Shown here: in pieces, positions 16,624 to 57,578 of the stretch
Numbering within the stretch: the stretch's first letter is position 1
Layout: every line of letters starts with the position of its first letter
Assembly (NCBI RefSeq): GCF_003234655.2
Contig: NZ_CP126271.1
Span: 2,852,001 to 2,916,000, forward strand
Length of the DNA stretch: 64,000 nucleotides
Direction of reading: 5' to 3'
From: Curtobacterium sp. MCLR17_007
GTDB lineage: Bacteria > Actinomycetota > Actinomycetes > Actinomycetales > Microbacteriaceae
Notes under the pieces: generated by a model
Told to the model about the DNA's origin: nothing
What the model saw: the letters and a program-made list of their open reading frames with translations, nothing else
The model's database searches: none
Program-made: the position numbers and the translations under genes

Positions 16624-16719
16624 GTGCGCGGTTGGTCCTTCGTGCGAGCCTGACCGCCCGGTGCGAGGTTGTAGCGCCGCACCACCCGTGCAACCTCGCA
16701 CGGGCCGCGAACCGCGCAC
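16624..16719. repeat. Nested inverted-repeat element in a convergent gap (copy 1)
   Basis: Outer arms GTGCGCGGTT (16624-16633) and AACCGCGCAC (16710-16719) enclose inner arms GTGCGAGGTTG (16661-16671) and CAACCTCGCAC (16691-16701). It lies between the 3' ends of the lacI gene and the arabinofuranosidase gene. Three other convergent gaps in the window contain the same architecture. No reading frame is supported here. Confidence 0.75.
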
Positions 16720-16721
16720 GG

Positions 16722-16769
16722 TGCGGACGGGAGGCTCGTGGCGGCCCGGCACCGGGCCTCCCGTCCGCA
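16722..16769 (+). terminator. Terminator hairpin with GACGGGAGGC core
   Basis: 14-bp arms TGCGGACGGGAGGC (16722-16735) and complement (16756-16769) lie about 130 bp after the lacI stop, with a 20-nt centre that can pair partly. Confidence 0.75.
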
Positions 16770-16810
16770 GCGTGCGCCGTCGCGCCCGCCTGCCGGCCCG
16801 GGAAGCAGGA

Positions 16811-16851
16811 ACGCGCGTAATGGGTCGGGGATCCCGACCCACCACGCGCGT
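16811..16851 (-). terminator. Terminator of the arabinofuranosidase gene
   Basis: Interrupted stem: ACGCGCGT (16811-16818), TGGGTCGGG (16821-16829), 3-nt loop, CCCGACCCA (16833-16841), ACGCGCGT (16844-16851). It lies 10 bp past the stop of the minus-strand GH51 gene. Confidence 0.8.
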
Positions 16852-16860
16852 CCCGACCTA

Positions 16861-18363
16861 CTAACCGATCGACAGCGCCGTCCACGAGACGGGCGGCAGC
16901 TCGATCGTGACGGTGTCGCCCTCGCGGCGAGCCGTCTCGTTCGTGCGCAGCCCCACGCGCGCCGTGTTCGCGAGGTCGTTGACCGCGTGCAGGTCGTCGT
17001 CCCAGACGCCCTCGGCGTGCAGGTCGCCCGTGACGTCGAGCCCGGACAGGTCGATCGTGACCGTCGTGCTCTCGGACGGGTGGCGGTTCACCAGGAACAC
17101 CGCGGCCTTGCCGTCCTCGATCGTGGCGGCGGAGTCGACCACGGGGACCTGCCCGTACGTGCCGCCGTCGACCGTGTCACCCGATGCGATGACCTGCAGC
17201 GAGGTGCCGTGCGCCAGGCGCGAGGTCAGCGAGAACGGGAAGAACGTGGTCTGGCGCCAGGCCTCGCCACCGGGCTCGGTCATGATCGGGCCGATCACGT
17301 TGACGAGCTGTGCGATCGACGCCGAGGCAACGCGGTCGGCGTGGCGGAGCAGCGAGATGAGCAGGCCGCCGACGACGACGGCGTCCGCCACGGTGTAGAT
17401 GTCCTCGAGCAGACGCGGGGCCACGGGCCACTCGTCGATCGTGAACTCCTTCTGCATCTCGTTCCACTTCGAGATCGACCAGACGTTCCACTCGTCGAAC
17501 GAGATGTCGATGCGCTTGTCCGACTTCTTGTGCGCCTGCACGTGGTCGGCCGCGGTCGTCACGGTGTCGATGAAGCGGTCCATGTTGACGCCGGACGCCA
17601 GGAAGGTCGCGAGGTCGTCGCCCTCTTCGTAGTAGGCGTGCGCCGAGATGTAGTCGACGTCGTCGTAGGCGTGCTCGAGGACCGTGCGCTCCCACTCACC
17701 GAAGGTCGGCATCGAGGCACCGGACGAACCGCAGATCACGAGCTCGAGGTCGGGCTGGATCTGGCGCATGCCCTTGGCGGTCATCGCCGCGAGCTTGCCG
17801 TAGTCGTCGGCGTTCTTGTGGCCGAGCTGCCAGGGGCCGTCCATCTCGTTGCCCAGGCACCACATCGTGACGCCGAACGGTGCCTCGCGGCCGTTGCGCT
17901 TGCGCTCCTCGGAGCGGGCGGTGCCGCCGGGGATGTTCGCGTACTCGAGCAGCTCGATGGCCGCCTCGGTCCCGCGGGTGCCGAGGTTGACGGCGAGCAT
18001 CAGCTCGGAGTCGACGGAGTCGAGCCACTGCTGGAACTCGTGCAGGCCGACCTCGTTGGTCTCGGTGGAGTGCCAGGCCAGGTCGAGGCGCTTCGGACGC
18101 TCGTCGACCGGGCCGACGCCGTCCTCCCACTTGTAGCCGGACACGAAGTTGCCGCCGGGGTAGCGGATCGTGGTGACGCCGAGCTCCTTGACGAGCTCGA
18201 TGACGTCCTTGCGGAAGCCGTGCTCGTCGGCCGTCTCGTGCGACGGCTCGTGGATGCCGTCGTAGACGTGACGGCCGAGGTGCTCGACGAACCCGCCGAA
18301 GAGACGACGGCGCACCGGCCCCACGGTGAAGGCGGCGTCGAGGACGAGGTGTGTGCGGGGCAT
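16861..18363 (-). CDS. abfA: GH51 alpha-L-arabinofuranosidase
   Basis: A 500-residue cytoplasmic arabinofuranosidase that removes arabinose from arabinan or arabinoxylan oligosaccharides. Family signatures: RYPGGNFVSGYKWEDGVGP, WCLGNEMDGPW with acid/base Glu at about residue 173, and ISFDEWNVW with nucleophile Glu at about 291. The length is normal for intracellular GH51. The start at 18363 has GGAG 5 nt upstream; an in-frame ATG 18 codons earlier lacks a ribosome site. It is divergent from a CUT1 importer, with two identical operators between them. Confidence 0.96.
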   Translation of the reverse strand: MPRTHLVLDAAFTVGPVRRRLFGGFVEHLGRHVYDGIHEPSHETADEHGFRKDVIELVKELGVTTIRYPGGNFVSGYKWEDGVGPVDERPKRLDLAWHSTETNEVGLHEFQQWLDSVDSELMLAVNLGTRGTEAAIELLEYANIPGGTARSEERKRNGREAPFGVTMWCLGNEMDGPWQLGHKNADDYGKLAAMTAKGMRQIQPDLELVICGSSGASMPTFGEWERTVLEHAYDDVDYISAHAYYEEGDDLATFLASGVNMDRFIDTVTTAADHVQAHKKSDKRIDISFDEWNVWSISKWNEMQKEFTIDEWPVAPRLLEDIYTVADAVVVGGLLISLLRHADRVASASIAQLVNVIGPIMTEPGGEAWRQTTFFPFSLTSRLAHGTSLQVIASGDTVDGGTYGQVPVVDSAATIEDGKAAVFLVNRHPSESTTVTIDLSGLDVTGDLHAEGVWDDDLHAVNDLANTARVGLRTNETARREGDTVTIELPPVSWTALSIG

Positions 18364-18430
18364 GGATCTCCTTTGATCAGGCTGTTCGTCGTGCAGGGGT
18401 CGTGCGTTCGGTGGCACCCCGTCACGAAAA

Positions 18431-18442
18431 GTGAGCGCTCAC
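18431..18442. promoter_or_regulatory. LacI-type operator, copy 1 (arabinoside locus)
   Basis: GTGAGCGCTCAC is a perfect 12-bp palindrome 68 bp upstream of the arabinofuranosidase start. It is identical to the copy at 18512, with 81 bp between their first bases. Sequence type and position fit a LacI-family repressor, but none is encoded beside it. Confidence 0.85.
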
Positions 18443-18511
18443 CTGTCCGTAACGCTACCGGTATCCACAGCGCGACGAAAGGGCTGGCGCACCGTGGACA
18501 CGCGGGCTAAT

Positions 18512-18523
18512 GTGAGCGCTCAC
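18512..18523. promoter_or_regulatory. LacI-type operator, copy 2 (arabinoside locus)
   Basis: A second GTGAGCGCTCAC, preceded by T and 52 bp upstream of the binding-protein gene. The two sites together cover both divergent promoters. Confidence 0.85.
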
Positions 18524-21878: not shown

Positions 21879-21897
21879 CGCCAGCGGAACGCGCGCA

Positions 21898-21937
21898 GAC
21901 GGGAGGCCCGGTGCCAGCTGGCACCGGGCCTCCCGTC
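21898..21937. terminator. Bidirectional terminator, perfect 40-bp palindrome
   Basis: Arm GACGGGAGGCCCGGTGCCAG followed at once by its complement, between the arabinoside permease (plus) and the siderophore-interacting protein (minus). The same 40 bp recur exactly at 26867-26906. Confidence 0.9.
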
Positions 21938-21963
21938 CGTTCGTGTGTCCGGCCGCGGGCACG

Positions 21964-26851: not shown

Positions 26852-26864
26852 ACCCACGCCGATC

Positions 26865-26908
26865 CGGACGGGAGGCCCGGTGCCAGCTGGCACCGGGCCT
26901 CCCGTCCG
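26865..26908. terminator. Bidirectional terminator, perfect 44-bp palindrome
   Basis: Extends the 40-bp palindrome seen at 21898-21937 by CG on each side. It separates the siderophore-binding gene (plus) from a small minus-strand gene. Confidence 0.9.
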
Positions 26909-26916
26909 TCGCGTGG

Positions 26917-36302: not shown

Positions 36303-36322
36303 GACCACCGCCCACACGAGCG

Positions 36323-36354
36323 GGAGGCGCGGTGCCGGCTGGCACCGCGCCTCC
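36323..36354 (+). terminator. Terminator after the old yellow enzyme gene
   Basis: 14-bp arms GGAGGCGCGGTGCC (36323-36336) and complement (36341-36354) with a 4-nt loop. Confidence 0.88.
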
Positions 36355-36379
36355 TGTCTGTCCGACCCCGGGAACGCGA

Positions 36380-36410
36380 AAGGCCCCGATGCGGTGTGCA
36401 TCGGGGCCTT
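36380..36410 (-). terminator. Terminator of the tRNA-Arg gene
   Basis: 13-bp arms AAGGCCCCGATGC (36380-36392) and complement (36398-36410), loop of 5. It lies 43 bp past the 3' end of the minus-strand tRNA. Confidence 0.83.
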
Positions 36411-36453
36411 CAGCGGTTCGGTGTCAGTCCGTCGTCCTGAACCGACGGAACTG

Positions 36454-36526
36454 TGCGCTCGAAGGGACTCGAACCCCCAACCTTCTGATCCGTAGTCAGA
36501 TGCTCTATCCATTGAGCTACGAGCGC
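36454..36526 (-). tRNA. tRNA-Arg (anticodon ACG)
   Basis: 73-nt cloverleaf. The acceptor stem GCGCTCG pairs with CGAGCGC, discriminator A. The D arm is AGCTCAATGGATAGAGC, the anticodon loop CTGACTACGGATCAG contains ACG, and the T loop is GGTTCGAGTCC. CCA is not encoded. No integrase or attachment duplication is seen beside it. Confidence 0.97.
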
Positions 36527-36633
36527 ATGGCTGCCGAAGCGGCCGTGGAAGACTCTACAACAGGTGCAGCACGGAGCGCCAATCGAGCCGGGGTCGACGC
36601 CGCAGTCGGCGTGTCGCCCGGCTCGACGGGCGG

Positions 36634-40149: not shown

Positions 40150-40183
40150 CACCGGTGTCAGGGCCGGCGGTGGGCACCAGCCA

Positions 40184-40231
40184 GGAGGCCCGGCTCGGGT
40201 GACCGACGTCGGTCACCCGAGCCGGGCCTCC
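40184..40231 (+). terminator. Terminator, perfect 48-bp palindrome
   Basis: GGAGGCCCGGCTCGGG begins a 24-bp arm (40184-40207) followed at once by its exact complement (40208-40231). It is 34 bp after the oxidoreductase stop. Confidence 0.9.
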
Positions 40232-40312
40232 CGTCCGGACATGTGAACAGCGTGTGACGTTCACCCCGCGAGCCTGGCGCGTTGTCTGTGGGTCCTCGTA
40301 GGTTCGACGCCG

Positions 40313-42565: not shown

Positions 42566-42583
42566 CGGCCTGATCCGCACGCC

Positions 42584-42617
42584 GGACGCCCCCGAGTCAT
42601 GCGGCACGGGGGCGTCC
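42584..42617 (+). terminator. Terminator of the nucleotidase gene
   Basis: 11-bp arms GGACGCCCCCG (42584-42594) and complement (42607-42617), loop of 12, 18 bp after the stop. Confidence 0.8.
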
Positions 42618-42865
42618 GTCATGTCCGGGAACCTGGACGTCCGCTCCGGGCGTAGCCAGTCGGCGTCGATCGCCTGTCGTTCCCCGGGAACGGCGGGTAA
42701 CCTCAGGCCTGTCGCCCCGCGACGCGCCACGCTGGGTCGCCTCTCTTCGCGAGCGGTGGTTCCGTATCGCGTGACTCCGTGGCGCGGGTGTCCTCCGTCT
42801 CCAGGGAAACGGCGGAGGGCACCCACCTCAGGGCACGTCGCTGGCCCGCTCTGCGTCTACGTGTC
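42618..42865. other. Non-coding stretch with one further hairpin
   Basis: No supportable gene. It holds a hairpin with arms GGGTGTCCTCCG (42786-42797) and CGGAGGGCACCC (42813-42824), 12 bp with one G-U pair. The open frames crossing it are extensions of neighbouring shadows without start signals. Confidence 0.6.
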
Positions 42866-42991
42866 CCCCGACGTCGCACGACCCGCCGCCGACGGATCGC
42901 CGAGGTCGCACGAACTGTCGCTCGCGGCATCGGTGCGCGGCGACCTCCGCGACCTCGGCGGACGCGAGCGGCAGGTTGTGCGACGTCGGGG
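42866..42991. repeat. Nested inverted-repeat element in a convergent gap (copy 2)
   Basis: Outer arms CCCCGACGTCGCAC (42866-42879) and GTGCGACGTCGGGG (42978-42991), extending to 18 bp with one mismatch. Inner arms CGCCGAGGTCGC (42898-42909) and GCGACCTCGGCG (42949-42960). The right outer arm ends exactly one base before the efeB stop codon. Between the 3' ends of the nucleotidase and efeB genes. Confidence 0.78.
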
Positions 42992-47071: not shown

Positions 47072-47074
47072 GAC

Positions 47075-47093
47075 GTAGGCAAGGCTAGCCTTA
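47075..47093 (-). promoter_or_regulatory. DtxR/IdeR-type iron box of efeUOB
   Basis: GTAGGCAAGGCTAGCCTTA matches the iron-box consensus at 14 of 19 positions and contains the perfect palindrome AAGGCTAGCCTT. It starts 4 bp upstream of the efeU ATG, and a TAGCCT -10-like hexamer lies within it, 10 nt from the start codon. Confidence 0.82.
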
Positions 47094-47131
47094 CTTCCGG
47101 GCTTCCGTCGAGCACGGCGGCGTGGGGTTGG

Positions 47132-47902
47132 ATGGTTCTCATGAACCTGCTCTCGGCGGACGGTCTCGCCGCCGTCACGAACGTGCTCGATCTGGCCGGG
47201 GTCTTCGCGTCCGCGCTGCTCGGGGGCGCAGTGGCCCGGACGATGGACTTCGACCTGTTCGGGTTCCTGGTCGTCGGGTTCGTCTCGGGGCTCGGCGGCG
47301 GCATGCTCCGCGACGTCCTGCTGCAGAACGGCCCCCCGGTCGCCCTGACGGACCCGCTCTACCTGCCGGTCGCCGTCGCCGGCGCCCTGGTCGCCTTCTT
47401 CGTCTCCTTCTCGGAGCGGGGCTGGGACCGGTTGTTCACCTTCCTCGACGCCGCGGTCATCGGCTTCTGGGCGGTGGTCGGGGTCCAGCGCACCTTCGAC
47501 GCCGGGCTCGAGTGGCCGGCCGCGATCATCATGGGGACGATCACGGCCGTCGGCGGCGGGGTCGGTCGCGACCTGCTGTTGCGACGCGTCCCGGCGGTGT
47601 TCGGCGGCAACGCGCTCTACGCGTCGGTGGCCGTGGCCGCCTCGGCGGTGATGGTCATCGCATCCGCGCTCGGCTCGCCCACGATCGGGATCGTCGCCGC
47701 CGTGGTGCTCTCGCTCCTGCTGCGCTGGGGTGCTGTGCGGTGGGGCTGGGGTCTGCCGAACGGCCGTGAGTGGCAACCGCAGTCGACGCTCGCTTCGCTG
47801 CTGCGCCGGGGCCGCGGGCTGCGTCCGGACGCCGTCCGGCTGCTCCGACGGCCCGGGCGACGGCACGGTGACGGCAGCGTGCACGCCGACGACGAGCGCT
47901 GA
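47132..47902 (+). CDS. TRIC/UPF0126-family cation channel protein
   Basis: A 256-residue membrane protein with about seven spans and an internal duplication visible in the repeated motifs GLGGGMLRDVLL and AVGGGVGRDLLLR. These glycine-rich kinks are hallmarks of prokaryotic TRIC (UPF0126) channels, which conduct monovalent cations. A 40-residue Arg-rich cytoplasmic tail is longer than usual. The start at 47132 is chosen for spacing to GGGG at 47124; ATG 47141 is possible. It is divergent from efeU, with the iron box in between. Confidence 0.88.
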   Translation: MVLMNLLSADGLAAVTNVLDLAGVFASALLGGAVARTMDFDLFGFLVVGFVSGLGGGMLRDVLLQNGPPVALTDPLYLPVAVAGALVAFFVSFSERGWDRLFTFLDAAVIGFWAVVGVQRTFDAGLEWPAAIIMGTITAVGGGVGRDLLLRRVPAVFGGNALYASVAVAASAVMVIASALGSPTIGIVAAVVLSLLLRWGAVRWGWGLPNGREWQPQSTLASLLRRGRGLRPDAVRLLRRPGRRHGDGSVHADDER

Positions 47903-48266
47903 CCACCCGGGAGTTGTCCCCATCACGCCGACCTGCTTCCCCGCTCCGAGCGCGACGCCTATCATCGAAACCGCCGGGTATCGAGTACCCGGCGCACCTC
48001 ATCCCGGCGTTGTCCCACACGGCGTGTTCCGCACGCCAGGGGGCCCGAATCGACACCGACGCGACCCGAATGCGGCGGTACCGGTCGGAGCAGCGCGGGG
48101 TGTGCAGCCAACGGGGGCTCCACCGCTCCGCGCGGGTTCAGACGCGCGGTGCGGCAGGTCCCGGGCTGCACAGCGCTGACGACACCGAGTGGGACCGGAG
48201 CCCACAGCCCACACGCCTGCCCACCGCCCGACCACCGGGACGGGCACTCATCTGAACCAGGACCAG
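47903..48266. other. 364-bp non-coding gap with one palindrome
   Basis: No gene is supported. A hairpin or operator CGCCGGGTA-tcgag-TACCCGGCG lies at 47972-47994, preceded by TATCAT at 47960-47965, which could be a -10. It may serve the TetR gene that begins at 48267. Otherwise nothing recognised. Confidence 0.55.
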
Positions 48267-48950
48267 ATGCACGACGCCGATGTCCCCGACGACAGCCCGA
48301 CGACCGGAGCGGCCTCGTCCGCTGCTGCGTCGTCCGGGGCTCGACCCGACGACGCGACAGCCACCGGCCCGACCCGGACGCCGCGTGCCGAGGTCCGGGA
48401 GCGGCTGCTGACCGCGGGCGCTGCGGTCTTCGCCGAACACGGTGTGCACGAGGCCCGCCTCGACGACGTCGCTGCGCGCGCGGGCTTCAGCAAGGGCGCG
48501 GTCTACTCGAACTTCTCCTCGAAGGAGGACCTCCTCGCGCAGGTCATGCAGCGCGCGACGAACCTGGTGCTCGGTTCGCTCGACGACCTGGTCAGCGAGG
48601 ACGTCGCCGCGACCGACATCGGTGACGTGGTCCGCACGGCGTTCGGGCGGCACGACCAGAGCGAACAGTTCGCCCTGCTGTCCGAGTTCCGCGGGTACGC
48701 CATCCGGCACCCGGAGTTCCTGCCCGAGTTCGTCCGGCAGCGCCGCGTGCTGCAGGACGGCGTCGCGCGGCTCGTGCACCTGTGGTTCGACGCGCACCCC
48801 GAGGTCGACCCGGGCATGCCGCTCGACGTGCTCTCCGAGGCGCTCATCGGCGCGAACGTCGGTCTCGTGTTCGATGCGCCGGCGCTCGACGGGACGAACC
48901 CCGGCGAGGTCGTCGCCACCCTGGTCGAGGCGGTCATCCGCCAACGGTGA
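48267..48950 (+). CDS. TetR-family transcriptional regulator
   Basis: A 227-residue regulator with a disordered Ala/Ser/Thr-rich N-terminus of about 40 residues, then the HTH domain RERLLTAGAAVFAEHGVHEARLDDVAARAGFSKGAVYSNFSSKEDLLAQV. The C-terminal ligand domain follows. ATG at 48267 has AGGA 4 nt upstream. It has no clear partner: the next genes are convergent and the previous one is 364 bp away. Ligand unknown. Confidence 0.87.
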   Translation: MHDADVPDDSPTTGAASSAAASSGARPDDATATGPTRTPRAEVRERLLTAGAAVFAEHGVHEARLDDVAARAGFSKGAVYSNFSSKEDLLAQVMQRATNLVLGSLDDLVSEDVAATDIGDVVRTAFGRHDQSEQFALLSEFRGYAIRHPEFLPEFVRQRRVLQDGVARLVHLWFDAHPEVDPGMPLDVLSEALIGANVGLVFDAPALDGTNPGEVVATLVEAVIRQR

Positions 48951-48958
48951 CGCCGCGG

Positions 48959-49002
48959 GCGCTCGCGCTGCGGGCGCTGCGTGCGCTCGCGCTGCGGGCG
49001 CT
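48959..49002. repeat. Imperfect tandem repeat, 24-bp period
   Basis: GCGCTCGCGCTGCGGGCGCT occurs at 48959-48978 and again exactly at 48983-49002, directly after the TetR stop codon. It leads into the inverted-repeat element. Confidence 0.75.
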
Positions 49003-49011
49003 CGGTGCACT

Positions 49012-49093
49012 CGGTGCGAGGTTGACCGCCCCGTGAGGGGCATCAGCCTCGCACCACCCGGTCAGCGGCGCACGAACGGGCAACCTCGCACCG
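49012..49093. repeat. Nested inverted-repeat element in a convergent gap (copy 3)
   Basis: Arms CGGTGCGAGGTTG (49012-49024) and CAACCTCGCACCG (49081-49093) are perfect over 13 bp. The GTGCGAGGTTG core is the same as in copy 1 at 16661. A smaller inverted pair CCCC/GGGG (around 49029-49040) lies inside. Between the 3' ends of the TetR and transglutaminase genes. Confidence 0.78.
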
Positions 49094-49170
49094 TGCTCCC
49101 TCGCACCGTGCTCCCTCGCACCGTGCAACCTCGCACCGTGCAACCTCGCACCGTGCTCCCTCGCACCGTG
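49081..49170. repeat. Perfect six-copy tandem array of a 15-bp unit
   Basis: Exactly six consecutive 15-mers: CAACCTCGCACCGTG, CTCCCTCGCACCGTG twice, CAACCTCGCACCGTG twice, CTCCCTCGCACCGTG. Only the first three bases vary (CAA or CTC). The first unit is the right arm of the inverted-repeat element, so the array is an amplification of that arm. It ends 13 bp before the transglutaminase stop codon. Confidence 0.93.
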
Positions 49171-49183
49171 CGTGCCCGACGCG

Positions 49184-51610
49184 CTACGACCGCGCGGGAC
49201 GGCGTCGGCCCCCGTGGGACCATGCCGACGACGGCGTCAGGCTCGGTGGCAGCAGCCGGGAACGCAGCCGCGCGGGCAGGGAGACGGACGCGTCGAGCGC
49301 GGCCCGGGCCTCGCGCAAGACCACCACCAGTCGATCGCCGTCGACGGAACCCGCCGCGGCGTAGCGCTCCTGGTCGATCGCGTCGACGACGGCCTCGAGG
49401 TGCCCGATCACCGTCGGGGACACCGACACCCGCAGCCGCCCGAGGACGGCCCGTGCCGTCCGGGCCACCGCAGCCGCATCGCCCGGTGGTGCGAGTCCCG
49501 GCGCGTACCCGTGGTCGGCCACGTCATCGAGCAGCTCCCGCCATGCGGTGACCGCCGGCGAGCGACCCGCCGCGACGGCCGTCAGTCGTGCCCGGCGTCG
49601 GACAGCGCGCACGAGCCCGGGGGCGAGGAGCACCCCGACCGCGACGAGGACCCCGACCAGCAGCCCCCACGGGCCGTTTCCACCACCGGTCGGCGTCGCC
49701 GCTCCGGCCTCGGCGGACGCCGACGGGGTCGGGGTGGCCGTGGTCGATGGGGTGGCCTGGTCCGGGGCGGGCAGGGGCGTCTCGGGGTCGGCGGCGGACG
49801 GGCTCGCCGAGGGCTGCGGCTCCGTGGTCGCGGCCTCGTCCGAGTCCGGCGTCGGTTCGAACGCCACCCAGCCGGCGCCCTTGATGTAGAGCTCCGGCCA
49901 CGAGTGCAGCTGCCGGTTCGACACGGTGTACTCGCCGTCCTCGGCGGTGCCGCCGGCGCGGTACCCGACGGCGATGCGGGAGGGGATGCCGAGCGTACGG
50001 GCCATCACGGCCATGGCGGACGAGAAGTGCACGCAGTACCCCTCGCGCACCTGCAGGAACTTCGCGACGACGTCCATGCTGTCCCCGTCGTAGCCCTGCT
50101 CCACCGGCGCCGTCTCGGAGTACGTGAACAGGTCGCTGCGGAACCACTGCTCGAGCGAGCGGGCCTGCTCGTACTCGGTCGCCGCGCTGCCGGCGACCCG
50201 CTGTGCCGTGGCCGCGATGCTCTTCGGCAGGTCCTTCGGCAGCTGTCGGTCGGTCCGGAGCTCGGCTGTGGAGGGGGTCGGGTAGCCGCGGCCGTCGAAG
50301 GCCGCCAGGCGGCCCGACGCGTCGACGGCGTCGAGGTACGCGTTCGCGAAGGTCGATGCGCCGTACACCTGGTAGGTGGCGCCCCGGCGGGTGGCGGGTC
50401 CGGTGGAGCGCACGGTGTTCGAGTTGGCCATCCACCGCCACTGGTCGAGCTCGAGGTTGGTCGACTGGGACTCGATCGACACCGCCCCGGCGGGCACCGG
50501 CAGGTAGTTGCTCGACAGCCCGGTGATGCGGATCGTCGCGTCGCCGCGGCTGGCCAGGCGCGGGTTGACCCCGACCGCCCACTGCTGCTGGTCGGCCGTC
50601 GGGGCGTTGCTGGCGTCCGTGACGGTCGGGACCCAGTCGCCGGAACCGAAGTCGTCGAGGTCCGCGAGCTTGAGGTACTCGGGCTGCCCGTCGGACGTGC
50701 GGTAGCGGAACACCTCGAGCTCGTTCGGCCGGCGGAGGTCCTGGCCGAGGTTGAGGAGCGTGCCCGGACGGCCGGGCTGGATGGGCGACTGGATGGCACC
50801 GGTCACCCCGGACAGCCAGCTCGCGTTCAGCGGCACGATCGACGGCAGTCCCACGGCGATGACCAGCGCGACGGCGCCGACGACCGTCGCCGGCAGTGCG
50901 CGTTGGACGGGTCTGACCGAGAGCCAGAGGATCGCGAGGAAGGCCAGACCGGTGACGATCACGAGCCCCGTGCTCGCCGGCGTTCCGGTGACGACGCCGG
51001 GGACGATGAGGATCACGAGCGCCGGGGCCGCGGCGAGCGCTGCGGCCGGGGCGACCGTCGCCAGGAAGATCGACGCCGCGGCGACCCAGGCGATCGCGAC
51101 CGTCACCACCAGACGGATCGCGTCGGTCTGCGGCAGCGGGGCCGGGTTCAGCCGGATCGCGGCGATCGTCTGCCCGAGTGCTCCGTCCCCGTCGATCCAC
51201 CCGAGCGGCTGGATGTCGTTGACGAGTGCCGCGGCGCACGAGCTGGCGATGAGCGTCGCCACGAGGGCGATGAAGCGGACGCCCGGTGGTCGCTGGCGGA
51301 CGGCCAGCACGACGCCGACCAGCACGACGACGATCGCGAGCGCCGAGGTCCACCAGGCGATGCCCTGCACGAGGGGGCGGAACGCGAGTGCCGCGATGAG
51401 CACGGGGACCGGGGCGAGTGCCACGACCCAGGCGGACGGGCCACGGACGGTGTCCTCGCGCTCGAGGATCTCGCGCACGTCCGCCCGACGACGGTCACCA
51501 CCGGCGCGGGCTGCCGGGCCGCCCGCCGCGCCACCGCGCCCGCCCGCCGCGCCACCGCGTCCGCCGCCGGCGCCACCGCGCCCGCCGCGCCCCGTGTCCT
51601 GCGTGGTCAT
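49184..51610 (-). CDS. TgpA-like transglutaminase-domain membrane protein
   Basis: An 808-residue protein. A Gly/Arg-rich N-terminal tail (GRGGRGGAGGGRGGAAGG) and a linker lead to about seven spans (DUF3488 region). An extracytoplasmic transglutaminase-like domain follows, with Cys in REGYCVHFSSAM, His in SNRQLHSWPELY and Asp/Glu in FEPTPDS. A Pro/Thr/Ser linker, one more span and a C-terminal cytoplasmic domain (DUF4129-like) close the chain. It is the last gene of a MoxR-DUF58-transglutaminase operon, a widespread unit of unclear function, perhaps cell-surface protein processing. Start overlaps the previous stop (ATGA). Confidence 0.92.
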   Translation of the reverse strand: MTTQDTGRGGRGGAGGGRGGAAGGRGGAAGGPAARAGGDRRRADVREILEREDTVRGPSAWVVALAPVPVLIAALAFRPLVQGIAWWTSALAIVVVLVGVVLAVRQRPPGVRFIALVATLIASSCAAALVNDIQPLGWIDGDGALGQTIAAIRLNPAPLPQTDAIRLVVTVAIAWVAAASIFLATVAPAAALAAAPALVILIVPGVVTGTPASTGLVIVTGLAFLAILWLSVRPVQRALPATVVGAVALVIAVGLPSIVPLNASWLSGVTGAIQSPIQPGRPGTLLNLGQDLRRPNELEVFRYRTSDGQPEYLKLADLDDFGSGDWVPTVTDASNAPTADQQQWAVGVNPRLASRGDATIRITGLSSNYLPVPAGAVSIESQSTNLELDQWRWMANSNTVRSTGPATRRGATYQVYGASTFANAYLDAVDASGRLAAFDGRGYPTPSTAELRTDRQLPKDLPKSIAATAQRVAGSAATEYEQARSLEQWFRSDLFTYSETAPVEQGYDGDSMDVVAKFLQVREGYCVHFSSAMAVMARTLGIPSRIAVGYRAGGTAEDGEYTVSNRQLHSWPELYIKGAGWVAFEPTPDSDEAATTEPQPSASPSAADPETPLPAPDQATPSTTATPTPSASAEAGAATPTGGGNGPWGLLVGVLVAVGVLLAPGLVRAVRRRARLTAVAAGRSPAVTAWRELLDDVADHGYAPGLAPPGDAAAVARTARAVLGRLRVSVSPTVIGHLEAVVDAIDQERYAAAGSVDGDRLVVVLREARAALDASVSLPARLRSRLLPPSLTPSSAWSHGGRRRPARS

Positions 51611-52929
51611 CGTGTCGCTCCGGTCCCGGCGACGGGGACCACGAGGGTGCGCCAGCCGCCGCGGTCGAGGATCCCGCGCACCACGGGGTCCGGCGGCACG
51701 ATCGTGGCCAGGATCCCGCGGCTGGAACCGTTGGTCGACGAGACGAGCGCTGCGGCCTGTTCCGCCGTGCAGTTGCCCGTGACGACGGCGGTCATGCCGT
51801 GCACGTCCCGTCCGCGGACGTCGGGCAGGACGTCGGTGACGGCGCGGGCGTCGCTGCGCAGGTGCACCTCGGCCAGCCCGACCAGCACGTCGGTCAGGCC
51901 GCCGGCGTCACCCGTGTGCCGCGTGGCGCCGTCAGCGTCGTCCGTGACCAGCACCACGCGCGACGTCCGTGCCGCCAGTGCCCGTGCGACGCTCGCGGCG
52001 ACCACGACGGCGTGCTCGAACGCCGCGTCGCCGCCGAGGTCGCTCAGCTCGGCGAGGTCGTCCCGACCCAGCTGCTGGTACGACTCGCGCCGCACGTCGA
52101 GCGCGATGACGGCCTCGGGTGGCTGCGCCTGGGTCGTCTGCCGGACGTGGAGCTCTCCGCGTCGAGCGCTCTGCGCCCAGTGCACGCGGCGGATCGGGTC
52201 CCCTGGTCGGTAGGGACGGAGTTCGCTGTCGTCGGCGGAGCCACCCTGCCCGACGCGGCCTTCGTCGGCGGAGACCGCCCCGGCGAGCGCGCCGGTGTCC
52301 ACCGCCGACAGCGGGGTCGAGGACGGCACGACCACGACCTCGTCCGGGGCGACGACGGGGCGGTCGATGCGGAGCAGGCCGAACGGGTCCTCGACGCGGA
52401 TGGTCACCGGACCGACGGTCGTGCGCCCGCGGTGCATCGCCAGGGCCTCGACGTCGAACACGGCCGGCGGCACGGACGGGCCGACCTCGACGTACGCCTC
52501 GGCCTCGGACACGCTGGCAAACGCGTCGTCGAGCTGTTCGCGCACGAGCAGGGTCGACCGCGGTCCGAGCGCCATCGTGGCGCCGCGCAGCGTGACCCGT
52601 TCGCGGTAGACCTCACCCACCTGCACCATCGCCCGCGGAGCGACACGGGACCCGCGCAGCGGCGCCGCGACGAGGAACGCCATCACGAACCCCAGGACGA
52701 CGAGCACCAGCAGCAGCAGTCCGGCCGACACGGCGACGCTCGTGGTGGCGACCAACCCGCCGCCGACCAGGCCGATACCGACCGCGATGACGGTCCAGCC
52801 GCGGGCCGTCGGCCGCGGGAACGGCGTCCGTCGCAGTGCCGCGGTCCCCCGGCGGGTCCACCGCGACAGCGTCGAGCGGGCGGCACCCGCTCGGCGCAGC
52901 AACGGCGGGGCCACCGGCGACCGGGCCAT
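51607..52929 (-). CDS. DUF58 domain-containing protein
   Basis: A 440-residue membrane-associated protein. Two spans lie near the N-terminus (WTVIAVGIGLVGGGLVATTSVAVSAGLLLLVLVVLGFVMAFL). The DUF58 signature LRPYRPGDPIRRVHWAQSARRGELHVR follows in the second half, and a vWA-like fold (VIALDVRRESY) after it. DUF58 proteins are partners of MoxR ATPases. The start overlaps the moxR stop by one base and the stop overlaps the next start by four. Confidence 0.92.
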   Translation of the reverse strand: MARSPVAPPLLRRAGAARSTLSRWTRRGTAALRRTPFPRPTARGWTVIAVGIGLVGGGLVATTSVAVSAGLLLLVLVVLGFVMAFLVAAPLRGSRVAPRAMVQVGEVYRERVTLRGATMALGPRSTLLVREQLDDAFASVSEAEAYVEVGPSVPPAVFDVEALAMHRGRTTVGPVTIRVEDPFGLLRIDRPVVAPDEVVVVPSSTPLSAVDTGALAGAVSADEGRVGQGGSADDSELRPYRPGDPIRRVHWAQSARRGELHVRQTTQAQPPEAVIALDVRRESYQQLGRDDLAELSDLGGDAAFEHAVVVAASVARALAARTSRVVLVTDDADGATRHTGDAGGLTDVLVGLAEVHLRSDARAVTDVLPDVRGRDVHGMTAVVTGNCTAEQAAALVSSTNGSSRGILATIVPPDPVVRGILDRGGWRTLVVPVAGTGATR

Positions 52930-53921
52930 CAGGAGCGGACGGGCGCGGCGGTGAAGGGCACGGCCGTCTCGGCGACGACGCGCACGACGATCTCGCGCGC
53001 CGTGTCCTCGGCGGAACCACCGAGCCCCCGGGCGACCGGCACCAGCCGGTGCGCCAGGACGATCGGCGCCAGCTCGGCGACGTCGTCCGGCGTGACGAAG
53101 GGCCGACCGAGCAACGCCGCGTGCGCCCGGGTCGCCTGGGCGAGGTGCAGGGTGGCGCGCGGGCTGGCGCCCAGCAGCAGGTCCGGGTGGGTGCGCGTGG
53201 CGCGGACGATCGCGATGACGTAGGCCTCGACGTCGGGCGCGATGTGGACCTGGTGGACGGCCTGCATCATCGCGCGGAGCGTCTGGACGTCGACGACCGG
53301 GCGGACGGACTCGAGCGGGTCGCGGGTGCCGCGGGCCGTGAGCATGCGGCGCTCGGCCTCGACGCTCGGGTACCCCATGGCGATGCGGGCCATGAAGCGG
53401 TCGCGCTGTGCCTCGGGCAGCGGGTACGTGCCCTCCATGTCGACCGGGTTCTGCGTCGCGACGATCATGAACGGCTGCTCGAGCGGCCGGGTGACGCCGT
53501 CCACGGTGACCTGCGACTCGGCCATCGCCTCGAGCAGCGCGGACTGGGTCTTCGGGCTGGTGCGGTTGATCTCGTCGCCGATGACGACGTTGGCGAAGAC
53601 CGGGCCGGGCGAGAACCGGAAGGTGCCCGAGGACTGGTCGAAGATGTTCACGCCGGTGACGTCGGACGGCAGCATGTCCGAGGTGAACTGGATGCGGTTC
53701 ACCGACCCGCCCACCGAGGCACCGAGGGCCTTCGCCAGCACGGTCTTGCCGACGCCGGGCACGTCCTCGACGAGCAGGTGCCCCTCGGCGAGCATCACCG
53801 TCAGCGCCGTGCGGATGGCGTCGGTCTTGCCGTCCACCACCGTAGCGACTGCGGACATGATCGCCGCACCGGCGTCACGGACCCGGTCGATGGGGAAGGC
53901 GAAGTCGGGGGCTTCCGGCAC
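52929..53921 (-). CDS. MoxR-family AAA+ ATPase
   Basis: A 330-residue ATPase, chaperone-like partner of DUF58 and vWA proteins. Walker A VEDVPGVGKT is at residues 51-60, Walker B is VVIGDEINRTSPKTQSALLEAM, sensor 1 is FMIVATQNPVDMEGTYPLPEAQRDRF. The GTG start at 53921 has GGAG 6 nt upstream, better than the ATG 18 codons earlier, which would add a Cys/Arg-rich stretch unlike the family. It is the first gene of the operon. Confidence 0.93.
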   Translation of the reverse strand: MPEAPDFAFPIDRVRDAGAAIMSAVATVVDGKTDAIRTALTVMLAEGHLLVEDVPGVGKTVLAKALGASVGGSVNRIQFTSDMLPSDVTGVNIFDQSSGTFRFSPGPVFANVVIGDEINRTSPKTQSALLEAMAESQVTVDGVTRPLEQPFMIVATQNPVDMEGTYPLPEAQRDRFMARIAMGYPSVEAERRMLTARGTRDPLESVRPVVDVQTLRAMMQAVHQVHIAPDVEAYVIAIVRATRTHPDLLLGASPRATLHLAQATRAHAALLGRPFVTPDDVAELAPIVLAHRLVPVARGLGGSAEDTAREIVVRVVAETAVPFTAAPVRS

Positions 53922-54017
53922 GCAGGTCTCCTCGGTTCGATGTCCGCGCATGCTACATCGGGCCGGTGACAGCACCCGGAGGATGTGTCACCGAGGTGCC
54001 GTCGGCACCACGGCACT

Positions 54018-54075
54018 GGACGGGAGGCCCGGTACAGGTGCGCAGATCGGCTCACCGGCACCGGGCCTCCCGTCC
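54018..54075 (-). terminator. Terminator of the isomerase-oxidoreductase operon
   Basis: 16-bp arms GGACGGGAGGCCCGGT (54018-54033) and complement (54060-54075), with a weaker inner pair GGTG/CACC. It lies 23 bp after the minus-strand isomerase stop. Confidence 0.85.
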
Positions 54076-54098
54076 GTGTCCGGTGTCGGGACCGCGCC

Positions 54099-55112
54099 TC
54101 AGTCGCGCCCGGCGCGCGGTGCCAGGGCCGCGTCCGCGGCCAGCAGCACGCGGGCCGCCACGGCGACGCCCTCGTCGCGGCCGAGCTCGGTGTCCTCGTG
54201 CTCGATGTTCACCCACATGTCGGGGTCGACCTCGTGCAGGGCTCGCAGGAACTCGGTCCAGTACGCCTGGTCGTGGCCCTTGCCGAGCGCGACGAAGTCC
54301 CAGGCGGACGGCTTCGGCCACGCGTTGGCCCACTCGTCGCCGCCCAGGTTCGTCCGCGGCTCGTCCGGCGACAGCCGCCCGAACCCGTTGTCGAGCACGC
54401 CGTTGATCGCGGCGTGCGGGTTGATCCGGACGTCCTTCGCAGCGGCGTGGACGACGAGCGGACCGAGGTCGCGGACGACGGCCACCGGGTCCATCTGCTG
54501 CCAGAACAGGTGGGACGCGTCCAGCTCGACCCCGACGTTGGTCAGTCCGCCGCGCGCCACGAGCTCGCGGACCGTGGCCGGGTTGAACACCAGGTTCTGG
54601 GGGTGCAGCTCGAGTGCGACCTTGACGCCGTGATCGCGGGCGAGGGCGTCGATCTCCTGCCAGAACGGCACGGCGATGCTCCACTGGTGCTCGAGCACGT
54701 CGAGGGCCGCGGAGTTCCAGGCGTTGACGACCCAGTTCGGCCGGGTACCGCCGGGCTCCCCCGCCGGCAGGCCCGACATCGTCACGACGCGGTCCTGTCC
54801 CAGTCGCGCGGCCAGACGGATGCTGCGTCGGACGTCCTCGGCGTGCGCAGGGCCGATCGCGGGGTCCGGGTGCAGCGGGTTGCCGTTGCAGTTGAGGCCC
54901 GCGACGGCGACCCCCGTCCCGTCGAACTGCGCCAGGAAGGCGTCCCGTGCTGCGTCGTCCGTGAGGACCGCGTCCATGTCCGGCACGTGCACCGCGGGCA
55001 GGAAGCCGCCCGTGTTCAGCTCGATGCCGGTGAGGCCGTTGTCCCGGACGGCACGGATCGCGTCGGCGAGGGGGCGGTCGTGGAAGACCGCGTCGTAGAG
55101 GCCGAGGTTCAT
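54099..55112 (-). CDS. Sugar phosphate isomerase/epimerase (AP-endonuclease 2 superfamily)
   Basis: A 337-residue TIM-barrel metalloenzyme. Metal ligands are visible in KVALELHPQN, VGVELDASHLFWQ and NIEHEDTE. Members isomerise or epimerise sugars and inosose-type compounds. The chain matches the IolE/YcjR-like group in length. The ATG overlaps the stop of the oxidoreductase gene (ATGA). The two presumably act in succession on one sugar or cyclitol under the divergent LacI regulator. Substrate unknown. Confidence 0.9.
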   Translation of the reverse strand: MNLGLYDAVFHDRPLADAIRAVRDNGLTGIELNTGGFLPAVHVPDMDAVLTDDAARDAFLAQFDGTGVAVAGLNCNGNPLHPDPAIGPAHAEDVRRSIRLAARLGQDRVVTMSGLPAGEPGGTRPNWVVNAWNSAALDVLEHQWSIAVPFWQEIDALARDHGVKVALELHPQNLVFNPATVRELVARGGLTNVGVELDASHLFWQQMDPVAVVRDLGPLVVHAAAKDVRINPHAAINGVLDNGFGRLSPDEPRTNLGGDEWANAWPKPSAWDFVALGKGHDQAYWTEFLRALHEVDPDMWVNIEHEDTELGRDEGVAVAARVLLAADAALAPRAGRD

Positions 55113-56344
55113 GCGTGCTGCTCCTGCCCCGTGCTCGCGCTCGCGTCGATGGTCTGGGTCGCTCCCCCGGCTGCGGCGGACCGCGCGACCGCGTCGAGGA
55201 CCTCCATGTTGTGGACGCCCTCCGCGAAGGTGGCGTTGGCCGGCAGCGCGTCCTCGGCACCGACGACCTCGTCGAGGAACGCCCGTGCCTGCACCTCGAA
55301 CATCTGGTTCTGTCCCCAGCCCACGCCGGGTGCGTCCATCGCCATGCCGCCGGCAACGTAGGGGTGGTCCGGTCCGAGCACCACCTGCCGGTACCCGCCC
55401 AGCCGCGAGCCGTCCGACTGCAGTGCGAGACCGATCTCCGACGGACGCTCCTGGTCCCAGCGGGCGGCACCGTGTTCGCAGAAGACCTCGACGACCAGGC
55501 CGTTCGGGTGACCGCTCGCCACGCGGGACACTTCGAGCGAGCCGACCGCCGAGCCGTCGCCGAAGCGCGCCCCGAACGTGGCGTAGTCGTCGTTCTCGAC
55601 GGTCGCGGTCTCCCCCGTGACCTGGGCCTGCTGCCCGCGCAGGACGTGTCCCGCGGCGACGGGCCGCTCGGTGATCGTGGTGCTGAAGAGCCCGCCGCGC
55701 ACGCTCCGGACGTCCCCGGCGAGGAACTCGGCGACGTACGTCAGGTGTGACCCGACGTCAGCGAGCGCCCCCGTGCCCGGTGCCCCGGCGAAACGCCACG
55801 AGAACGGGACGTCCGGCGACGAGCCGTAGTCCGTCCAGTACCGTCCGGACACGTGCAGGACCCGGCCGAGGGTGCCGTCCTCGACGAGCTGTCGGATCGC
55901 GGCGAGCCCCGGTGCCCGGCGGTACGTGAAGCCGAGTCGTGCGACCTGGCCTCGCCCGGCAGCAGCGTCCGCGGCCACGACCATGGCGCGGGCGTCCTCG
56001 AGCGAGTCCGCCAACGGCTTCTCGCACAGCACGTGCTTGCCGGCGGCCAGCAGCCCCTCGACGATCTCGCGGTGCAGCCGGTTGGCGACGACGACGCTCA
56101 CCACGTCGACGTCGTCCGCCGCGGCGATCGCGCGCCAGTCGGTGTCGTGCCGGGCGTAGCCGAACCGGGCCGCCGTCTCGGCGGCGAGCGGCTCGAAGAC
56201 GTCGCCGACGGACACCAGCCGCACGGGCGGCAGCGTTGAGTCGAACAGGGACGGGGCGTTCCGCCAGGCCGCCATGTGGGCCTTGCCCGCCATGCCTGCT
56301 CCGATGACGGCCACGCCGATGGGGTCGTTGTCGTTGGTGCGCAC
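55109..56344 (-). CDS. Gfo/Idh/MocA family oxidoreductase (sugar or cyclitol dehydrogenase)
   Basis: A 411-residue NAD(P)-dependent dehydrogenase. The N-terminal VAVIGAGMAGKAHMAAWRN is the nucleotide motif, CEKPLADS the family signature, and GTGALADVGSHLTYVAEFL carries the catalytic Asp/His. GTG at 56344 has GGAG 5 nt upstream. It is the first gene of a two-gene operon whose promoter region carries a perfect palindrome and a divergent lacI-type gene. Confidence 0.92.
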   Translation of the reverse strand: MRTNDNDPIGVAVIGAGMAGKAHMAAWRNAPSLFDSTLPPVRLVSVGDVFEPLAAETAARFGYARHDTDWRAIAAADDVDVVSVVVANRLHREIVEGLLAAGKHVLCEKPLADSLEDARAMVVAADAAAGRGQVARLGFTYRRAPGLAAIRQLVEDGTLGRVLHVSGRYWTDYGSSPDVPFSWRFAGAPGTGALADVGSHLTYVAEFLAGDVRSVRGGLFSTTITERPVAAGHVLRGQQAQVTGETATVENDDYATFGARFGDGSAVGSLEVSRVASGHPNGLVVEVFCEHGAARWDQERPSEIGLALQSDGSRLGGYRQVVLGPDHPYVAGGMAMDAPGVGWGQNQMFEVQARAFLDEVVGAEDALPANATFAEGVHNMEVLDAVARSAAAGGATQTIDASASTGQEQHA

Positions 56345-56374
56345 GAGTGCTCCGTTCACGTCGTCGTGCCGTAT

Positions 56375-56396
56375 CGCTCTGGAACGTTCCAGAGCG
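56375..56396. promoter_or_regulatory. LacI-family operator, perfect 22-bp palindrome
   Basis: Core TCTGGAACGTTCCAGA extended by CGC and GCG on the two sides. Central CG and placement between divergent oxidoreductase and lacI genes fit a LacI-family site controlling both. Confidence 0.88.
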
Positions 56397-56444
56397 TGTG
56401 ACAGACTGTAGCTGCCCGACCCCATGTCCTGTCAAGGAGCACGC

Positions 56445-57446
56445 ATGACGAACCGCAGACCGCCGACGATCATCGACGTCGCCGCGCGGGCCGGGGTCTC
56501 GAAGTCGCTGGTCTCGATGGTCATGCGCGACGACCCGGGCGTCTCCGAGCCACGACGCGCCGCGGTCCTCGCCGCCGCTGCGGACCTGGGGTACCGGCCG
56601 AACCGCGCCGCCGCGATCCTGGCCGGCACCCGCACCAGGACGATCGGGGTGGTCATCGACGACTTCCGCAACCCCTGGTACGTGCCGATGCTCGACGGCA
56701 TCCGCGGCGCGCTCGAACCGCACGGGTTGCGACTGACCCTGGCGGACACGACGGCCAACGCCCACCTGCCGTCCTCGCCGTTCGACGACCTGGTGTCGCT
56801 GCGGGTCGACGGCGTGGTGCTCGCCGCCGAGAGCTCCCCCGACCTCGAGGTCCCCGCCGACACCCCGGTCGTCGTCGCCGGCGTCCGGGCGCTGGCGCCC
56901 GCCGACGTCGACGTGGTCGCCTCCGACGAGGCCGCCGGCGCCCGCCTGGCGACGGACCACCTGGTCACGCTGGGCCACCGGTCGATCGCGCACCTGAGCG
57001 GGACGGGAGGCTCCGCGGCCGCCCGCCGCACGGCCACCGTCGAGCGGATGGTGGCGTCCGGCATCGCGCCGGTGGTCGTCGGCGACGGTGCCACCTCCGA
57101 GCAGGCCGGCTACCAGGCGGCACGCTCGGCGCTGACTGAGCACCCCGGGCTGACCGCGGTGTTCGCGGCGAACGACGTCATGGCGATGGGCGCGATGGCG
57201 GCGGCGCGCTCCATGGGCCTCCGGGTGCCGGAGGACCTGTCGGTCGTCGGGCACGACGAGACCCCGTTCGCGGGCTCCGGACTGGTCGACCTGACGACGG
57301 TGGACCCGCACAACGCCGAGGTCGGTCGGCTCGCCGCCGAACGGCTCGTCGCACTGATCGGCACGGGCGCCCGCCCGACGCCGGACACGACCCTGGTGCC
57401 GCCCACGCTCGTGGTCCGGGGGACGACGGCGCCGCCGCGGCGGTGA
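56445..57446 (+). CDS. LacI-family transcriptional regulator
   Basis: A 333-residue repressor with HTH TIIDVAARAGVSKSLVSMVMRDD at residues 9-31 and hinge LGYRPNRAAAILAGTRT. The effector domain (IGVVIDDFRNPWYVPMLDGI...) resembles sugar-binding proteins. AAGGAG precedes the ATG at 56445. It most likely binds the palindrome 49 bp upstream and controls the divergent isomerase/dehydrogenase operon in response to its sugar. Confidence 0.92.
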   Translation: MTNRRPPTIIDVAARAGVSKSLVSMVMRDDPGVSEPRRAAVLAAAADLGYRPNRAAAILAGTRTRTIGVVIDDFRNPWYVPMLDGIRGALEPHGLRLTLADTTANAHLPSSPFDDLVSLRVDGVVLAAESSPDLEVPADTPVVVAGVRALAPADVDVVASDEAAGARLATDHLVTLGHRSIAHLSGTGGSAAARRTATVERMVASGIAPVVVGDGATSEQAGYQAARSALTEHPGLTAVFAANDVMAMGAMAAARSMGLRVPEDLSVVGHDETPFAGSGLVDLTTVDPHNAEVGRLAAERLVALIGTGARPTPDTTLVPPTLVVRGTTAPPRR

Positions 57447-57516
57447 CCGGCGGCGCGTCGACCGCGTGTCGCTGCGCCGCGCGCCGCCCGGCCAGCCATC
57501 CCCCGGGCGCGCGCAT

Positions 57517-57578
57517 CGCGCCCCCGTGCAGACATCGCGCCCCGTTGACCGCGGGCGCGATGTCCGCGCGGGGGCGCG
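57517..57578. repeat. Nested inverted-repeat element in a convergent gap (copy 4)
   Basis: Outer arms CGCGCCCCCG (57517-57526) and CGGGGGCGCG (57569-57578). Inner arms ACATCGCGCCC (57532-57542) and GGGCGCGATGT (57553-57563). Same nested design as the three other copies, but the arm sequence differs. Between the 3' ends of the lacI-type and GH18-like genes. Confidence 0.77.

Follow-up and report, generated by a model that had tools for sequence, protein, structure and literature searches.

The window, a stretch of 64,000 nucleotides from Curtobacterium sp. MCLR17_007, a plant-associated bacterium, contains four gaps between converging genes in which nested inverted repeats are found. The genes are those of a codon-position caller, which may have overlooked small ones, and not of an annotation; their products were assigned via Pfam. 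The features are as follows, with a strand where one applies.

16592..16860: convergent gap of site 1, between genes for a LacI-type regulator (+) and an arabinofuranosidase (-)
16624..16719: site 1, an F1 element with outer and inner arms and an exact six-box lattice
16711..16780: simple hairpin of the F2 type (CGGACGGGAGGC..GCCTCCCGTCCG) beside site 1, from a covarying, terminator-like family
42566..42991: convergent gap of site 2, between genes for a 5'-nucleotidase (+) and a Dyp peroxidase (-)
42866..42991: site 2, an F4 element, a three-helix palindrome of a dispersed family distinct from F1
48951..49183: convergent gap of site 3, between genes for a TetR-type regulator (+) and a TgpA-like transglutaminase (-)
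48996..49091: site 3, an F1 element with five lattice boxes, the outermost left box being degenerate
49092..49166, - strand: tandem 15-bp core repeats (CCTCGCACCGTGCTC / CAACCTCGCACCGTG) trailing site 3
57447..57610: convergent gap of site 4, between genes for a LacI-type regulator (+) and a GH18 protein (-)
57517..57578: site 4, an F3 element (GACATCGCGCC / GGCGCGATGTC, 23 bp start-to-start) of a third dispersed family

The outer arms of site 1, GTGCGCGGTT (16624-16633) and AACCGCGCAC (16710-16719), enclose an inner pair, GTGCGAGGTTG (16661-16671) and CAACCTCGCAC (16691-16701). Its boxes, GTGCG at 16624 (F0), 16642 (F1), and 16661 (F2) and CGCAC at 16678 (R1), 16697 (R2), and 16715 (R3), match the pattern of the F1 family with 0 mismatches on either strand. 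Site 3 shows 1 mismatch to this pattern on the - strand and 2 on the + strand, with boxes at 49014 (F1), 49033 (F2, here GTGAG), 49050 (R1), 49069 (R2), and 49087 (R3) and arms of 17 nt each (49012-49028 and 49077-49093; complementarity, 94%). The tandem tract behind it has a reduced length in the near-identical strain L070. The arms of site 2 are CCCCGACGTCGCAC (42866-42879) and GTGCGACGTCGGGG (42978-42991), and the Dyp peroxidase stop codon directly adjoins the element; at ∼42709-42830, a conserved RNA-like stretch lies in the same gap. Site 4 has arms of 26 nt each (57517-57542 and 57553-57578) with a complementarity of 92%. Simple hairpins are present in two of the shorter convergent gaps (21879-21963 and 26852-26916), where the earlier note places simple terminators. 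Two tRNAs are the only matches in the window at the gathering score of Rfam 15, and all matches at sites 1 and 2 lie far below it.

The four nested inverted repeats of the earlier note are thus found as described, with converging genes at each. Its proposals that such repeats exceed chance and favor convergent gaps and gene 3' ends also hold: across 364 kb of the genome, nested perfect arms occur in 11/36 convergent, 10/97 co-directional, and 0/52 divergent gaps, against dinucleotide-shuffle expectations of 0.33, 0.33, and 0.23, respectively. The filter behind these counts requires perfect arms (outer, ≥10; inner, ≥8), so it also accepts long simple hairpins as nested and does not pick up site 3. 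Sites 1 and 3 do have a common core as well, both being members of F1, and this core is dispersed elsewhere in the genome. GTGCGAGGTTG matches the window 10 times with at most 1 mismatch, a number reached in 0/100 shuffles, and is found genome-wide at 75 exact sites, compared to 1 for the reversed word. The idea of one design at all four sites has to be given up; the sequences fall into three families differing in sequence and spacing, and a single class is ruled out.

The F1 element is a palindrome of ∼96 bp with six GTGCG/CGCAC boxes, three per arm, in a lattice of 18-19-17-19-18 bp and with the extended core GTGCGnGGTTG. The five-box pattern shows 76 matches in the genome, compared to 0 in the reversed control, and tandem arrays occur too. 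Within the genome's own stretches, box spacings peak at 18, 19, and 37 bp on the same strand, at 17, 36, 54 to 55, 73, and 91 bp from forward to reverse boxes, and at 6, 24 to 25, and 43 bp from reverse to forward boxes. Loci of relatives, retrieved via a gene and not via the repeat, show identical values or values off by one base. A consensus from three genomes begins with GTGCG and ends with CGCAC. Copies were found through the boxes, so that box conservation among paralogs follows from the selection of copies; columns 14 and 45 were unused in this selection and are near-invariant (1.8 to 1.9 bits) amid variable neighbors.

All 42 five-box clusters of F1 fall in gaps between called genes, with 26 in convergent, 16 in co-directional, and 0 in divergent gaps and 0 in genes. 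An unbiased sample of gaps of at least 100 bp contains 24 convergent, 68 co-directional, and 45 divergent cases, which makes both the convergent excess (p 2e-10) and the divergent absence (p 5e-8) significant. The copies lie behind stop codons; even in co-directional gaps, 14/16 are closer to the 3' end of the upstream gene. The elements are clustered, with 17/42 inside 500 kb of the chromosome (scan P 0.001), and the GC skew of the sampled stretches is too noisy for locating ori and ter.

Among the genomes searched so far, F1 is confined to Curtobacterium: matches per genome range from 0 to 81 among 66 Curtobacterium genomes, with at least 14 in 11/66 and none in 37/66, and a search of 244 genomes covering 84 other Microbacteriaceae genera gives no match. 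Among the papers listed, from a library that lacks most subscription journals, no title or abstract opening describes these repeats. Within one species, 39 orthologous copies could be aligned and 3 could not, with 8 lacking a fetched region. Between two genomes of this species, 21/1440 element bases are changed, compared to 103/3062 in the intergenic flank, a slower change that is due in part to choosing copies by their boxes. Three elements of genome G054 are not listed in the window's own genome, G000; the two that were checked as candidate fresh insertions both have orthologous core-word loci in G000, and no case of an element entering an empty site was seen. The earlier suggestion of a miniature mobile element agrees with the dispersal and the copy-number differences and disagrees with copies that are stationary within the species and with the lack of a REP-transposase domain. 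This domain, Y1_Tnp (PF01797), is found in 0/24 Curtobacterium genomes by a search that is positive in 5/14 control genomes and 1/15 outgroup genomes.

Compensatory changes separate F1 from F2 and F4. Covariation over all nonbox positions of the F1 arms gives z values of 1.6 (G000), -0.8 (G076), and -0.7 (G021), partner columns reach a mean z of 0.25 versus 0.005 for other columns (73 copies), and 75.1% of cells are paired, compared to 74.5% in shuffles (29 copies). The F2 hairpins of the same genome served as a positive control and reach z 7.9 (n=42) when cleared of identical rows alone, a treatment less strict than that of F1. After 80% clearing equal to that of F1 (n=15), their inner part keeps z 5.3 (0/3000) and their outer part z 1.9 (151/3000). 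In F4, 7 pairs are changed on both sides versus 3.6 in shuffles (4/500), and the copies of F3 are too few for such a test. Some signal is seen in F1: its spacers covary in a mixed set of relatives (z 5.3, with lineage uncontrolled) and weakly in its own genome (z 2.1), three spacer positions give z 2.3 (53/3000), and 43 cells are changed on both sides versus 34 (41/500). The earlier note took a lack of compensatory changes between strains as refuting its view; the strain comparison of F1 yields 14 stem changes in 24 single-copy pairs, too few for a decision. The claim of selection on structure is not upheld for sites 1 and 3, as F1 copies within three genomes show no significant compensatory changes. 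F4 at site 2, by contrast, appears to be maintained through its pairing and would function more in the manner of a REPIN or of a hairpin transcribed at the 3' end.

A box-specific purifying signal likewise did not last. A first ortholog test counts 9/780 changes in boxes versus 51/1326 in the nonbox stem, and a simulated ascertainment correction gives 9 box changes versus 25.5 expected. This contrast is caused by tandem copies and is gone once the arrays are removed (5/480 versus 14/816 for the 24 single-copy elements; p 0.47). Mutational coldness of GTGCG was rejected as its cause: outside the elements, the word is changed at 4/215 intergenic and 20/1147 genic positions, compared to 93/4093 and 566/38494 for all bases.

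The four sites are best explained as belonging to three families of extragenic palindromes that are dispersed over Curtobacterium gene 3' ends, with F1 as a REP/BIME-like family kept by its boxes and not by its fold, an account that stands at about an even chance. F1 resembles REP, BIME, and REPIN elements as a high-copy dispersed extragenic palindrome, short and present in inverted pairs and tandem clusters, located mainly between convergent or co-directional genes (26 and 16, with 0 divergent), and uneven among related genomes; the available part of PMC3733652 gives the same placement for REPs. It differs in its three boxes per arm on an 18- to 19-bp lattice, a REP being one hairpin unit of 20 to 40 bp. 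That all the elements are remnants of a REPIN population mobilized by a RAYT is very improbable. Inverted doublets in extragenic space, the convergent and co-directional bias, tandem arrays, and many copies are REPIN-like traits (available parts of PMC3116915 and PMC3733652), but the RAYT-driven origin was dropped given the missing Y1 domain in 24 Curtobacterium genomes. Moreover, F1 differs from the GTAG and CGTC super-families, as neither tag is present in its consensus, an alignment of 60 columns with the ends beyond outside it. Compensatory changes are said to be common in REPIN stems in the available part of PMC3116915; they are significant in F4 and not in F1. As far as the available text of PMC3733652 goes, Actinobacteria are not among the phyla in which it places GTAG and CGTC repeats, and CGTC repeats are said to have no dedicated RAYT either. 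DNA uptake sequences (DUS/USS) are conserved ∼11-mers found genome-wide, often as inverted pairs behind genes. F1 shares these traits but has only ∼75 exact copies, 0/42 five-box clusters in genes, and a complex fixed spacing.

Bidirectional termination, as the earlier note suggested, would have the F1 hairpin end both convergent transcripts as a structural, U-less terminator, a reading that is possible but doubtful. U-less terminators are common in GC-rich actinobacteria; these U-lacking (I-shaped) intrinsic terminators resemble F1 in having a stable stem behind genes that in principle works on both strands, and the F2 hairpins of this genome match the kind well. The 3'-end location fits, and the predicted folds of the 42 elements beat shuffles on both strands (mean z -4.1 and -4.3; z under -2 in 36/42 on the + strand), although low fold energies follow partly from the boxes used to choose the copies. 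For the antisense RNA fold that the earlier note also suggested, the analysis covered such folding. The available part of PMC8269248 reports many U-lacking structured 3' ends in Streptomyces clavuligerus. A scan for a stem with a T run over 40000-59000, a range that takes in sites 2, 3, and 4, finds 1 terminator-like match, at 45237 and at none of the sites, versus 2.7 in shuffles; U-less terminators are possible. F1 differs from them in its conserved boxes, three nested arms, and weaker continuous stems and in stems without the significant compensation that F2 shows; intrinsic terminators elsewhere evolve via compensating pairs, according to the available part of PMC5381666. Hairpins scoring at least 36 are found in 13/40 F1 zones, compared to 25/36 ordinary convergent gaps. 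F1 does not replace other hairpins either: an apparent substitution (6/26 versus 25/36; p 7e-4) is matched by 7.0/26 in a length-matched control, which is harsh in trimming away the central part of gaps; after this matching, the distributions are no longer complementary. In one orthologous gap followed through 36 convergent loci, a four-box lattice (≤2 mismatches) is present in 11/36, and 10/36 have gaps of <60 bp without room for F1. The position thus fits, and the terminator role of F1 is unproven.

Alternatively, the boxes could form a binding array behind genes for a putative dedicated sequence-specific DNA-binding protein with a nucleoid, boundary, or transcription-roadblock function, which is unlikely. 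Such an array is consistent with the exact spacing and dyad symmetry of the boxes, with words that are conserved although they show no pairing, with the restriction to intergenic 3' regions, and with the clustering within 500 kb; spacings of 17 to 19 bp that are not whole helical turns, the 37/66 Curtobacterium genomes without a match, and the lack of a candidate protein argue against it. For the REP/BIME-like family, similarly, no binding protein or mobilizing enzyme has been identified. Such a family would spread and expand in tandem through copying or recombination and would be tolerated where neither genes nor promoters are cut. Its boxes may be kept through recognition of their sequence, probably by a putative DNA-binding or DNA-processing protein. 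The hairpin in either RNA would be a by-product that may help to end or protect both transcripts.

Nested palindromes behind genes are usually taken as RNA hairpins; F1 fails the compensatory-change test that neighboring hairpins pass. F1 also adds an extragenic family that is restricted to one genus, has an exact box lattice, and shows no RAYT in the genomes searched, to elements of a sort that a survey lists for other phyla (PMC3733652, in its available part). A more speculative and quite unlikely reading takes F1 as an array for a putative Curtobacterium protein marking or insulating the far ends of genes, where six boxes at fixed distances would act between convergent genes as a roadblock that is read as sequence and is neutral to direction. 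If true, this roadblock would be the protein-based counterpart of the F2 hairpin terminators that the chromosome uses in other gaps. F1 in Curtobacterium makes a simple question testable, namely, what reads the boxes.

All four nested inverted repeats described in the earlier note are found in the window, with arms matching the description, and gene calls place converging genes on both sides of each. The repeats do not share one design, as had been proposed, and instead fall into three families (F1, F3 and F4), listed here with other features of the window.

16624-16719: site 1, family F1 (six GTGCG/CGCAC boxes)
42866-42991: site 2, family F4
49012-49093: site 3, family F1
57517-57578: site 4, family F3
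21879-21963, 26852-26916, 36303-36633 and 16711-16780: F2, recurrent simple hairpin GACGGGAGGCCCGGTGCC..GGCACCGGGCCTCCCGTC
about 42709-42830, + strand: RNA-like conserved stretch in the site-2 gap, motif CTCCAGGGAAACGnCGGAG
36454-36526 and 59108-59196: two tRNA genes, both inside stretches called convergent gaps by the gene caller

In a 364-kb sample of the 3.8-Mb genome, nested perfect arms number 11 in 36 convergent gaps (0.33 in dinucleotide shuffles), 10 in 97 co-directional gaps (0.33), 0 in 52 divergent gaps (0.23), and 6 in 271 kb of coding sequence.

The core GTGCGAGGTTG, common to sites 1 and 3, occurs 75 times in the genome, compared to once for the reversed word. In own-genome stretches picked by this core, the pentamers GTGCG and CGCAC show distance peaks of 18, 19, and 37 on the same strand; 17, 36, 54/55, 73, and 91 from GTGCG to CGCAC; and 6, 24/25, and 43 from CGCAC to GTGCG. 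In relatives' loci, fetched by a gene, the peaks are identical or one base off. Because these distances sum to it, a single F1 element can be written as GTGCG N13 GTGCG N14 GTGCG N12 CGCAC N14 CGCAC N13 CGCAC, 96 bp in length. Site 1 is an exact fit, and the lattice ends coincide with the bounds first assigned to it. A five-box probe with ≤3 mismatches yields 76 matches, with many copies scoring on both strands, compared to 0 for the reversed pattern. The 42 gaps covering every five-box match are convergent in 26 cases and co-directional in 16, with none divergent and none in genes; unbiased gaps of at least 100 bp comprise 24 convergent, 68 co-directional, and 45 divergent. The upstream gene's 3' end is the closer one in 14 of the 16 co-directional copies, and 17 of the 42 gaps cluster within 500 kb (2.63-3.13 Mb of G000 C1; scan P 0.0011).

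At least 6 exact cores are present in 13 of 24 Curtobacterium genomes; 15 genomes from other families of the order contain 0 to 7 (reversed control, 0 to 4). At ≤3 mismatches, the five-box pattern is found in 29 of 66 Curtobacterium genomes (0 to 81 matches each, at least 14 in 11 genomes), with two single matches in total for the reversed control. The figure of 29 is an upper one, since some 3-mismatch matches are not F1: a recurrent stretch in four genomes (G001, G005, G041, and G047) resembles a portion of a tRNA gene. When ≤2 mismatches are allowed, positives across the family number 2 of 249 genomes, both among the 5 Curtobacterium included, and the pattern is absent from the 244 genomes of 84 other genera. 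The window's TgpA-like protein leads to 43 loci in Curtobacterium, 2 of them listed as Microbacteriaceae. The TetR/TgpA gap holding site 3 is readable in 38 and convergent in 36, of which 11 match the four-box lattice with no more than 2 mismatches and 1 more matches it with 3; the gap is <60 bp in 10 and longer without the lattice in that register in 14, some of which have related boxes spaced differently.

The site-4 word GGCGCGATGTC has 31 copies (control, 3), forming inverted pairs exactly 23 bp apart four times; its 15 places in fetched stretches are convergent (6), co-directional (2), or in called genes (7). The element is nearly unchanged in the near-identical strain L070, and in 8 other readable loci the gap measures 0 to 93 bp in 5 and 184 to 1289 bp in the remainder. 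Tandem 23-bp repeats adjoin site 4 (57572-57630), and another tandem array lies in a different convergent gap (L069 8863-9153).

The DNA of site 2, family F4, gives 32 matches in the own genome, a count that takes in the site itself and hits on both strands, and as many as 49 in a relative; 9 of 13 F4 clusters are convergent and 4 co-directional. Among 11 paralogs, paired cells reach 92.5% compared to 90.5, two-sided cells number 12 compared to 5.4 (0/500), and G-U steps are many. For site 2 (F4), a paired hairpin at the 3' end is the better reading. In L070, flanks 98-99% identical to the window enclose about 450 bp of other repeats, including an F4-like half, in place of a stretch of about 156 bp that contains the F4 element. 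Compared with L070, window positions 42834-42990 are a cassette swap, with near-identical flanks and largely different repeats, among them one with CGAGGTTCCGAAAT..TGGCATCTCG that also occurs in L067.

A search with the motif CTCCAGGGAAACGnCGGAG finds the neighboring RNA-like stretch in the window and, once each, in 34 of 43 loci from relatives. A -10-like TANNNT stands upstream, the number of predicted pairs is 35, and columns such as 119/174, 183/211, and 190/204 covary clearly among C-G, T-A, and T-G. Rfam returned no relevant match for it. The stretch resembles an as yet undescribed Curtobacterium small RNA.

The proposal of selection on structure is not borne out for F1. With copies picked on the basis of four boxes alone, put in a common orientation, and freed of those ≥80% identical, pairing of the non-box stem is at the level of random partner arms in three genomes: 0.577 compared to 0.550 in G000, the genome of the window (n=27, z 1.6), 0.529 to 0.548 in G076 (n=21, z -0.8), and 0.499 to 0.510 in G021 (n=25, z -0.7). 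Mutual information averages z 0.25 in partner columns and 0.005 elsewhere, and the 1 of 22 partner columns with z >3 is a loop pair. A separate count of 29 own-genome copies, including both window copies, gives 75.1% paired cells compared to 74.5 shuffled (125/500), 14 pairs changed on both sides compared to 12.2 (102/500), and 43 such cells compared to 34.1 (41/500). Against an absence of compensation stand a mixed-species set with spacer covariation of z 5.3, lineage uncontrolled, and weak spacer covariation in the own genome.

Under the same permutation in the same genome, the GGAGGC..GCCTCC hairpins of F2 reach z 7.9 (0/3000; n=42), and z 5.3 at equal 80% clearing (0/3000; n=15), with strong compensatory change. 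The F2 word ACGGGAGG occurs in 12 of 44 sampled convergent gaps of ≥30 bp, and F2 is likely the ordinary terminator of this genome. F1 is shaped differently, and a structural terminator, to which its position at 3' ends would be suited, seems a less likely rival reading given its stem pairing; the terminator comparison draws on PMC8269248 and PMC5381666.

Comparison of 50 F1 anchors with the same-species strain G054 aligned 39, left 3 unaligned, and found 8 without a fetched region. Among 24 single-copy elements, 21 of 1440 element bases and 103 of 3062 intergenic flank bases are changed (p 2e-4), rates somewhat biased as matches were chosen by boxes. Given this slower change, the whole element seems to be held within the species; a box-only effect is not shown by the counts (boxes, 5/480; non-box stem, 14/816). 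Single changes at paired stem positions break the pair in 4 cases and keep it in 2. A putative dedicated binding array, with the regular box lattice as its sites, is a doubtful reading of these data. In dispersal and position, F1 is like REP/BIME-type extragenic families, but it lacks the REP-associated transposase (RAYT), tag, and compensation that PMC3733652 and PMC3116915 associate with them; the transposase domain Y1_Tnp (PF01797) is found in 0 of 24 Curtobacterium genomes and 1 of 15 others. The chances appear about even that F1 is a repeat read as sequence, with its hairpin a by-product.
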